Assembly (NCBI RefSeq): GCF_964204645.1
Contig: NC_134034.1
Location: 3,070,072 to 3,134,071 of the forward strand
Direction: 5' to 3'
DNA: 64,000 nucleotides
Origin: Tubulanus polymorphus
Taxonomy: Eukaryota; Nemertea; Palaeonemertea; Tubulaniformes; Tubulanidae
Position numbers and translations under genes: made by a program. This document shows, in pieces, positions 996-24,572 of this stretch (its first letter is position 1; the number at the start of each line of letters is the position of its first letter). The notes beneath the pieces are model-generated. The model did no database searches and was not told the origin of the DNA. It saw nothing but the letters and a program-made list of their open reading frames with translations.

Positions 996-3900
996 TTATT
1001 TTCTCATACAAGCCGGAGATATGGAGCCAGAATCTGAACGTCTGACGCGAGTCGAACCCGGCGCATTTCTGTCCGAATTCTCGTCGCATTGCTTCGTATT
1101 CGACGAGTAGGTCAGAAACTTCATCTCGACGCGCGTGACTTTACTCAAATCGATCGAAGCGTCTTCCGATATTTTCAACGTCCAGGTTGTGAAGGGAGGC
1201 AGGGCAGAAAGTTCGTCTTGATTCTCGCCAAACATGCAGCCGAATTCCGTGATTTCCCCTGCAAAAATGAGAACATAAACATTGGCCATAACATTTCTGG
1301 CGTGGCAAGTATATCGTATTGAGAATTCCTGGCGATGTTATTTGTTAACAGAATACTTCTTTATAAAAATGCCTATTTAGAATGTATGTGTGTGTAATTT
1401 ATGTCATCATCAATTAAACATAATCACAAATTGAATGTATAACGACTAAGTAGATTGATGATAGGAACCTGAACAGAGCCTTAAAGGCTGTACAATCACT
1501 AGGACGTTCAGGCCCCTTAGAGAAAAAAAGAAGAAGATTAACGGTAATGATAATAATAATAATAATAATAATAATAATAATAATAATAATAATAATAATA
1601 ATAATAATAATAATAATAATAATAATAATAATAATAATAATAATAATAATAATAATAATAATAATAATAATAATAATAATAATAATAATAATAATAATAA
1701 TAATAATAATAATAATAATAATAATAATAATAACAATAATAAAAATGGAAGCATTATGCTTATCGATTCTTCGATATCCTTACCTGATGAAAGTTTATAT
1801 TTGTAGGCGATCGTTTTACCGTTGCCGAAAAAACTGTAAATCTTGCCGCGGTACCTGTCCGAAAATTCACCAGCCCTCGCCAACAAAATACCCAATTCAT
1901 CTTTGCTCGATTCGGCCCCGTGAACGACGATTCTCATTTCGATTATTCGAATTCGTTCGTAGTCGGCGAACGCCGGCTCGTCGACGTCGATGACGAAGTT
2001 CACGCTTCGGTCGTTTTTCAAGAACGTGATCGGGCATTCGGATTCGGTCGGGCCGTCGCCCGCGCAATCCCCGCTATCCGTCAGGTCCAGGTAGATGTTC
2101 AGCGGTTTGCTGCTGCATTTCAGGTCGGGATCCAACTGGAACAGAGTGGTCGCTTGGATTTTCGTCAACACCGTCTCCAGATCGTCTTTCAACAACGGTA
2201 TGTTCTTTTTCGAACATTCGGTAAATTCGTTGTAGAACTTCGATTGACAATACAAGCGAATAACGTCGTGAACCAGTTCCCGATAATAGAACGACTGCCT
2301 ATGAAATTTGCTGAGTAATTGCTTCGTCACCTGATCCTGCTCTAAGGATTTCTTGTATTCCGCTTCCAGCTGCGTTTTGTAAATCTGCGACAGTTGTAGA
2401 CTCTGCCTCAAACGCGCCGCGTTCTGCACCCTGACGCCGATGTTGATGGCTTCTTTAGTCAACGCTTCGCCCCAGACGGTCATCTCGATAAGCGATGCCT
2501 TCACCTCGTTGATAAACGGCGCTATATCCGGGATAATCATCGCTTCCAGACGCTGTTCGATCAACGCTTTCAAGGCTTGCCACTTACCGATTTGCACTTT
2601 GAGTCGAGCCGTATCGCCGACCGTGCGACTGTCGTATATGCTTTCGACGGTGTTGCCCTCGACGCCGGTTTCGTAACTACTGCTGACTTGGATTATACGA
2701 TTGATTATCTCCTCCATTTCGAGTACGTCTTTCACGACGTTGGCCATATTCGCGTAGCCGTTGACGATGATCGCCGGTCCGATTTCTTCGGTGTTCGCGA
2801 ATATTCCCGACATCACGCTCAAGATATCCAACTGATCCATATCGGCCATGTGGGTCCTGAGTCTCTTCACGTCTTCGGCCGATTTATCGCGAGCATTTTG
2901 AAATTCGAATTCCAACATACCTATTGTGCTGGAAGCGACGCTGAACGCGCTCTCGGCGTCCTCCTTCAGACTCTCCATGTGCGAAATCGGCTGTTGCATT
3001 TCGCTAATCGATAACTTGATCCGCGAAAGCACGTCTGCCGTATTCTGACCGCTCTCTTTCAGATATTTCAAGTTGCCGATGTAATCCCGCAGCATCTCGG
3101 TCAGAACCTCCGCGTAACGTTTATACGTGTCCATAGACAGCGGGGGCACGCTGCGCACGTCGGATTTCTCGTGCAGAATCACGTCCATCACGTTCTGTCG
3201 CGCTAAATACGACATCTGTTGCAGGTCGTCGTCCTCCGGGTGGCCGGCGTTTCTCAACGCTTCGGCCGACGCGACGGCGGCGACCTCTCGTAGCAAATCG
3301 ACGGCGATGTCGATATTCTGTTGATCGCCGTTTTCGACGAGGCTCTTCGCGCAAAACATGGCCATCTGTAAGAAGTCGAGACGCTGAACGGGGATTGCGA
3401 AGCTGCCCTTCGAGGCGACCGTGCACTGAAACGGGGCTATGATCTCCGACGCGACCAGTAATAACGAACCCTCGTTGTCGTCGTCGTTGTACGATATCGC
3501 CACCTGGGTTTCCGACGCGTCCGACGTTCTGATGAACTGCGTCGTACACCCGAGCAATTCTACATTCGTCGACGACTTGTAGTTGAACTTCAAATACGAG
3601 CCCGCTTCCATGTAGAATGTCTTAGCGACGATTTGTAGACGGTATATCACGCTAGCCCGGCCGCTGAACGAAACGGAAAACGCGAAAATTCGCAACTCCT
3701 TCAGATCCGTCCGATCTTTGACTTCGGAGAAGATCTCGTTCAAATCGACGTGAGTTTCGTAGATGGTGATGATCCCGCCTTCGTCGTCGCTTCGCAGGAA
3801 TTCGGGCGAACCGCATTGTGAATAACAGTTTCTGCGTCCGCAAAGTACGGCGTCAGTTGACTGCGGTTCAATTTCTCTAAATTCTATCAGAGCGTTGATG
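996..3900 (-). CDS. C-terminal unknown module of the chimera (two exons)
   Basis: Exon 3900-1784 encodes 705 codons without an intron; exon 1258-996 ends the protein. I do not recognise the family. A cysteine cluster ([13 protein letters not shown]) comes first, then a mixed region with [13 protein letters not shown], then about 350 residues that look mostly alpha-helical (near 1255-1600, e.g. [19 protein letters not shown] and [20 protein letters not shown]), then a probably beta-rich end with [11 protein letters not shown] and [13 protein letters not shown]. No clear membrane helix is seen. The donor CATCAG|GTAAGG at 1783 and acceptor ttgcag at 1259 make the last intron; reading through it gives a false poly-leucine tail. 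A possible likeness to long helical bundles of secreted binding or pore-forming proteins is speculation. Confidence 0.7.

Positions 3901-24572: not shown

Follow-up and report, generated by a model that had tools for sequence, protein, structure and literature searches.

Mosaic lectins are common in invertebrates, and the locus considered here raises the question of whether one gene has brought together CTLDs, an F5/8 type C domain (F5/8C), TSP1 modules, PAN-like modules, LRRs and a long C-terminal piece in a single secreted protein, and of what such a protein might do. The window is the whole 64,000-nucleotide stretch of DNA that was analysed (G000:C10:3070072-3134071), and the searches of the animal's own genome covered its 267.8-Mb assembly of 77 contigs, to which labels such as C4 refer and in which no match to COX1 was found. 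Rebuilt from splice sites, the locus gives one gene model on the minus strand, running from 24572 to 996, with 23 exons, 5646 nt, 1881 aa and a single terminal stop; the preliminary description had reported 23 exons in one uninterrupted 1881-aa frame, and the reconstruction arrives at the same figures. The exons, with the evidence for each (percentages are identities to paralogous copies), are as follows.

24500..24572, minus: exon 1, ATG and signal peptide; hydropathy peak; homologous exon in the C4 copy, 57% over 30 aa (tblastn)
21216..21444, minus: exon 2, first part of CTLD 1; Lectin_C 3.7e-9 with exon 3; 74 and 73% (C4 twice), 68% (C8)
20502..20629, minus: exon 3, second part of CTLD 1; Lectin_C with exon 2; C4 copy 57%; without EPN/QPD or WND
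19207..19340, minus: exon 4, first part of module X; C4 copy 90% over 41 codons; SUEL unsupported
18810..18975, minus: exon 5, second part of module X; both C4 copies 67%, C8 50%
17450..17663, minus: exon 6, first part of CTLD 2; Lectin_C 6.1e-6 with exon 7; C4 copy 57% over 61 codons
17040..17236, minus: exon 7, second part of CTLD 2; Lectin_C 6.1e-6 with exon 6
14542..14730, minus: exon 8, F5/8 type C part 1; PF00754 5.5e-13 across exons 8-10
13492..13610, minus: exon 9, F5/8 type C part 2; PF00754 across exons 8-10
12710..12851, minus: exon 10, F5/8 type C part 3; PF00754 across exons 8-10; C4 copy 83%
11835..12005, minus: exon 11, TSP1 module 1; PF00090 46.3 bits; C4 copy 88%
10846..11034, minus: exon 12, TSP1 module 2; PF00090 45.7 bits; C4 copy 81%
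10025..10270, minus: exon 13, PAN-like module 1, GC donor; C4 copy 74%; no PAN match, WSC below cut-off
8930..9181, minus: exon 14, PAN-like module 2; C4 copy 67%; no Pfam match
7781..8017, minus: exon 15, PAN module 3; PAN_1 6.9e-6 for the exon alone; 64 and 65% (C4 twice), 53% (C8)
7013..7255, minus: exon 16, PAN-like module 4; PAN_3 0.0053, below cut-off; C4 copy 69%
6263..6311, minus: exon 17, start of the LRR block; splice sites; paralog counterpart only inside a longer match
5469..5546, minus: exon 18, LRR; C4 copy 84%
5312..5377, minus: exon 19, LRR; LRR_8; C4 copy 95%
4824..4901, minus: exon 20, LRR; LRR_8; C4 copy 92%
4584..4649, minus: exon 21, LRR; C4 copy 76%
1784..3900, minus: exon 22, C-terminal orphan domain, 705 full codons; seven places in the own genome
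996..1258, minus: exon 23, end of the C-terminal domain, stop at 998-996; five own-genome places (itself, 79, 79, 82 and 38%)

The reading frame was assessed on a 24-exon version that includes a micro-exon: its coding frame is not interrupted before the terminal stop, whereas the other two frames contain 95 and 88 stops, and 200 shuffles of the same version gave a mean of 98 stops and a minimum of 73. GC content is 0.49 in exons (0.57 at third positions) against 0.39 in introns, and, with the micro-exon's sites included, 22 of 23 donors are GT, one is GC, and every one of the 23 acceptors is AG. The GC-AG intron begins at window position 10024-10023, where exon 13 ends in AAGAG and is followed by GCAAGT, and the donor aligned with it in the C4 paralog is GT. 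The micro-exon itself (4524-4501, 24 bp) would keep the frame and give 1889 aa, but it was dropped for its weak donor, GTGTAT, and its lack of a clear paralog counterpart; a 20-base stretch of the C4 copy is 85% alike. Around these exons the window also holds an intronic 19-bp minisatellite of about 44 copies (17936-18776), whose minus-strand open frames of up to 299 aa could mislead a gene finder, and a 92-bp tandem repeat of about three copies just past the gene's 3' end (35-332). A Pfam scan of open frames elsewhere in the window gave matches in two of nine, a MIOS alpha-solenoid match at 55017-55385 on the minus strand (2.8e-10) and an anticodon-binding domain AD match at 32431-32766 on the plus strand (1.8e-13).

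The signal peptide, at about aa 4-32, is the most hydrophobic part of the protein, the next highest window reaching only 1.48, and a hydropathy scan of the protein found no second strong hydrophobic span; six N-glycosylation sequons lie at aa 463-920. Every intron that separates two modules, 11 in all between the signal peptide and the first LRR exon, is in phase 1, whereas of the five that interrupt CTLD 1, module X, CTLD 2 or F5/8C four are in another phase, and those within the LRR block are in phase 2. Class 1-1 exon shuffling predicts phase-1 introns at module borders, so that phase 1 at every one of these borders is the pattern expected under that process.

Most of the module names that had been given to this protein hold when searched against Pfam. 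Each CTLD matches Lectin_C separately (37.7 bits, 3.7e-9, and 27.4 bits, 6.1e-6; cut-off 22.6), F5/8C matches PF00754 (49.6 bits, 5.5e-13; cut-off 28.2), the two TSP1 modules match TSP_1 over two stretches (73.5 bits in total, 1.6e-20, and 46.3 and 45.7 bits for the exons singly), and the LRRs match LRR_8 (28.8 bits, 1e-6; cut-off 27); no EGF or vWF-D match was found by Pfam in the protein. In the proposed array of four PAN modules one exon passes: exon 15 exceeds the PAN_1 cut-off of 21.4 when scanned alone (26.2 bits, against 18.8, below cut-off, when scanned with the rest of the N-terminal part), while exon 16 reaches 17.0 bits for PAN_3 against a cut-off of 21.1, exon 13 gives only WSC (17.0 bits against 27.8) and exon 14 gives nothing, the cysteine spacing of these three exons being PAN-like by eye. 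The secreted mosaic ending in an unrecognised piece is supported, the paralogs bearing it out, and the C-terminal domain has no match above cut-off; the listed order makes 12 units, not 11, once that last piece is included.

The label that the sequence does not support is SUEL, assigned to exons 4-5. Pfam returned no SUEL match to this exon pair up to E 10; a SUEL HMM of 12 sequences, from which the own-genome match L032 and one of five listed PDB chains (u141359) were left out, scored 4.8 bits, a value equalled or beaten by 7 of 300 shuffles; and hhalign of the pair against SUEL gave a probability of 0.3%. None of three PDB hits is a SUEL. As SUEL is unsupported by sequence, the pair was renamed module X. 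It resembles SUEL/rhamnose-binding lectins and the lectin domain of latrophilin in having a similar length and several cysteines, and departs from SUEL in lacking a Pfam match, in its PDB hits and in an HMM score within the range of shuffles.

A pattern search found neither EPN/QPD nor WND, the motifs of calcium-dependent sugar-binding C-type lectins, in either CTLD. For CTLD 1, the best matches of solved structure, among 54 listed, are LY75, the phospholipase A2 receptor, NKR-P1, CD94 and CD69. Most of these act without calcium-bound sugar. LY75 and NK-type C-type lectin-like proteins are membrane receptors, and the present protein, close as its CTLD 1 is to them in sequence, differs in that nothing beyond its signal peptide is strongly hydrophobic over a comparable span.

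Whether these modules truly belong to one gene can be judged from its relatives in the same genome, which were sought with five exons (2, 5, 15, 22 and 23) and the TSP1 family. The large C-terminal exon occurs at seven places, the window included, among nine scored candidates, with identities of 82 and 78% at C4 (twice), 70% at C8, 29% at C2, 25% at C7 and 27% at C11 (residues 20-189 only). With the C7 copy of the last exon as query, the same five places as for exon 23 were recovered, plus one at E 0.54; the C2 last exon would be expected in or beyond an adjoining 5-kb stretch of N. That stretch (L042 150-5149, G000:C2) reads N beside the C2 copy, and a 2353-aa open frame there is an artefact. 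Each of the seven places has at least one TSP1 match upstream, and C7 and C11 also have a second. Exon 2 matched 36 places, mostly other CTLDs, and stands in the right order at C4 twice, C8 and C2 (E 3.4e-35 to 2.3e-7); it is in order also at C7 (E 3.6e-4) and C11 (E 0.0021), with scores no better than those of CTLDs elsewhere. Exon 15 matched nine places, among them C4 twice, C8 and C2 (E 8.8e-5), and exon 5 matched eight, among them C4 twice and C8, with a weak match at C2 (E 0.56). At three exon-5 places no C-terminal domain was found, two at C6:17941274-17948743 and one at C8:200346-202608, the last beside a CTLD match; module X may accompany CTLDs in other genes as well.

The six markers keep the same order and strand at both C4 copies and at C8, and, with matches picked from the lists, a strict single order holds at C10, C4 twice, C8 and C2, all on the minus strand. 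In the C4 copy compared exon by exon (18 of 23 exons, of which exon 6 and the large C-terminal one were covered only partly; exons 7-9 excluded, exon 17 only within a longer match and exon 1 by tblastn), no stop was found, and this copy and the window are 76% identical over 1326 codons, with a dN/dS of 0.21. Its PAN and then LRR exons run successively up to the C-terminal domain, and its signal-peptide exon lies at the far N-terminus. The two C4 copies are 95% identical to each other over 396 codons, which points to a recent duplication. Within 100 kb on either side of the gene there is no tandem paralog at E 1e-3, the flanks yielding one weak CTLD-like match (C10:2980850, E 0.0125).

These comparisons bear on two ways in which the gene model could mislead. 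The first is that two adjacent genes, one for lectins, TSP1 and PAN and one for LRRs and the C-terminal domain, were joined by hand, a reading favoured by the shift of intron phase from 1 to 2 at exon 17 and by the C7 member, in which nothing like PAN or LRR matches between the TSP1 pair and the C-terminal domain. Yet the order and strand are the same at three close paralogs and at C2, the C4 copy carries PAN and LRR exons in succession across the proposed boundary, and at C7 itself the TSP1 pair lies only about 1 kb ahead of the C-terminal domain. The collinear paralogs and the exon series of the C4 copy make two separate genes very unlikely, and agree with the earlier proposal of one gene with one order. 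The second is that the copy has decayed or was produced by the assembly, which large introns with micro- and minisatellites and the one GC donor might suggest and which, given 1881 codons without a stop, a dN/dS of 0.21 against the C4 copy over 1326 codons and a GT counterpart of the GC donor, is hardly credible.

The more distant members indicate which parts of the protein the family has in common. At C7 the third F5/8C exon is followed by two TSP1 modules and the C-terminal domain, and between these two neither PAN nor LRR matches at E 5; at C11 two TSP1 modules and two open frames that are PAN-like by eye precede a C-terminal domain that is either interrupted by introns or decayed; and at C2 two TSP1 modules are accompanied by two PAN-like matches and by two LRR-like ones, both weak (E 0.03 and 0.09). 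Their make-up argues that the shared core is the TSP1 pair plus the C-terminal domain, to which the CTLD in front probably belongs, and that the PAN and LRR blocks vary, gain and loss of these blocks not being distinguishable from these members. A dense TSP1 cluster on the minus strand (C7:1392711-1403492) was also seen about 30 kb from the C7 member, which is on the plus strand.

The new part of the protein is the C-terminal domain, about 790 aa long and encoded by exons 22 and 23. Its cysteines lie near both ends (columns 20, 25, 29, 119, 163, 187, 562, 573 and 607 of alignment A3 in the covering members, the first two being absent from the C7 member), and 367 cysteine-free residues separate the sixth from the seventh in the window copy. 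N-glycosylation sequons are absent from the large exon of the window copy and of the C8 copy, which carries little weight since the other members have one or two. Searches of the seven A3 members gave eight Pfam families, each in one member and judged to be chance (best DUF4315, 0.0014), and a single NCBIfam match (0.054) that is not credible; Pfam on pieces of the domain gave only DUF6214 (0.099), XLF (6.8) and Tenui_NS4 (0.14), none above cut-off, and PDB sequences gave matches at E 0.33 or worse, also judged to be chance. Viral contigs yielded 11 pattern stretches with one protein as query and 29 with alignment A1, and prokaryote genomes 372 with A1, none of them confirmed, in scans that start from a few short peptide patterns and can therefore miss distant relatives; no part of A3 was sufficiently conserved to seed another prokaryote scan. 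As far as its sequence can tell, the domain is new to Pfam, NCBIfam, PDB sequences and the prokaryote and viral scans, a claim that covers those libraries and not animals generally.

The cysteine-free middle of the domain is probably helical in the predicted model, although the model, made for the C-terminal exon alone, has a mean pLDDT of 37.9 and so supports no fold claim. Such long helices, flanked by cysteine-containing ends and with a hydrophobic turn, would recall helical pore-formers, and the domain might act on membranes with the lectin half as its aim. In its favour, columns 360-390 of the alignment include one of the top three hydropathy windows in five of six covering members, the value reaching 1.87 in C2, and the accessible part of a survey describes predicted coral proteins that combine CTLD and MAC/Perforin (PMC8260672), a precedent for the idea and not for this domain. 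The window copy is the exception, none of its own top three windows falling at those columns; ordinary helical hairpins commonly have hydrophobic turns, and Pfam, NCBIfam, PDB sequences and the prokaryote and viral scans returned no credible relative. We regard a membrane-acting domain as improbable, and the bolder proposal of a new animal effector fold working on the membrane of the bound cell, with lectin-aimed killing or tagging assembled by exon shuffling in one animal line, as more improbable still.

What the protein does may be approached through the constraint on its parts, measured by module between the window and one C4 copy (for the C-terminal domain, on 476 of its codons). dN/dS is 0.30 for exons 2-6 (95% 0.20-0.45) and 0.36 for PAN (0.25-0.50), against 0.15 for the end of F5/8C with TSP1 (0.08-0.26), 0.14 for the LRRs (0.06-0.32) and 0.11 for the C-terminal domain (0.08-0.15). 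Exons 2-6 and PAN thus stand at about three times the C-terminal domain, higher in 1000 of 1000 bootstraps each, and above F5/8C-TSP1 in 981 and 998 of 1000 respectively. The contrast in dN is only about twofold (0.205 for exons 2-6 and 0.213 for PAN, against 0.102), so that part of the difference comes from a higher dS in the C-terminal domain. Constraint on that domain is not uniform, since dN/dS of its exon is 0.28 against the C8 copy and 0.55, on few changes, between the two C4 copies. No module has a dN/dS near 1 between the window and the C4 copy, which leaves positive selection unsupported; relaxed constraint would suffice. We infer from this pattern faster-changing binding heads on a constrained core.

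Our first choice, held tentatively and short of even confidence, is a soluble recognition or opsonin-like protein, a reading drawn from secretion, the six mid-protein sequons and the faster change of the binding modules. One secreted 1881-aa glycoprotein would bind ligands on foreign or partner cells through its CTLD-X-CTLD array and PAN-like modules, and these contacts would probably be independent of calcium-bound sugar, as the CTLDs lack the calcium-sugar motifs. The F5/8C-TSP1-TSP1 core and the LRRs would hold the protein on host membrane, matrix or partner proteins, and the C-terminal domain, as the conserved working piece, would most likely oligomerise or pass a signal to a partner. Defence would be the most likely use; seven copies are few for a receptor repertoire, which counts against recognition. 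Self/non-self recognition, the egg coat and the matrix, as named in the preliminary description, are possible settings.

The principal competitor, somewhat more doubtful yet a substantial possibility, is a structural or adhesive protein of matrix, mucus, foot glue or egg coat, in which the modules would cross-link matrix and surfaces, polymerisation being the task of the C-terminal domain. Strongly constrained F5/8C-TSP1, LRR and C-terminal parts would suit it, as would the recurring mixes of EGF, vWF-D, SUEL and F5/8C that the available text on temporary adhesives describes (PMC10057474). Of that mix, F5/8C alone was matched here, and binding-type modules with higher dN/dS fit recognition better than scaffolding, a pattern that an egg coat would also fit. 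The marine mosaics in the same available text (PMC10057474), sea urchin Nectin and an alpha-tectorin-like protein, are likewise secreted with F5/8C and lectin-like modules; Nectin, however, has six F5/8C domains, and the alpha-tectorin-like protein has SUEL, EGF and vWF-D, none of which was found here.

A recognition protein would have company among invertebrate multidomain C-type lectins, in which CTLDs are fused to other extracellular modules (PMC8260672). In the accessible portion of that survey, cnidarian CTLDs are joined to PAN, CUB and other domains, PAN being among the common partners, and the domains that it names as marking extracellular CTLs include F5/8 and thrombospondin. The present protein differs from the lectins described in that portion by carrying two CTLDs, F5/8C, a TSP1 pair, a PAN-like array, LRRs and an orphan domain in one chain, and its domain order was not found in a literature search whose scope took in few subscription journals.

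The significance of the locus lies first in a tail of about 790 aa that stands outside the family libraries used and occurs at seven places in one genome, each preceded by TSP1, and second in the dN/dS contrast between the binding modules and the rest, which gives a testable picture of which part of the protein faces outward. Should the tail turn out to be an effector or polymerisation domain, animal defence or adhesion would gain a new component; should it be ordinary, the family would still illustrate module shuffling cleanly, its collinear order having been preserved across duplications.
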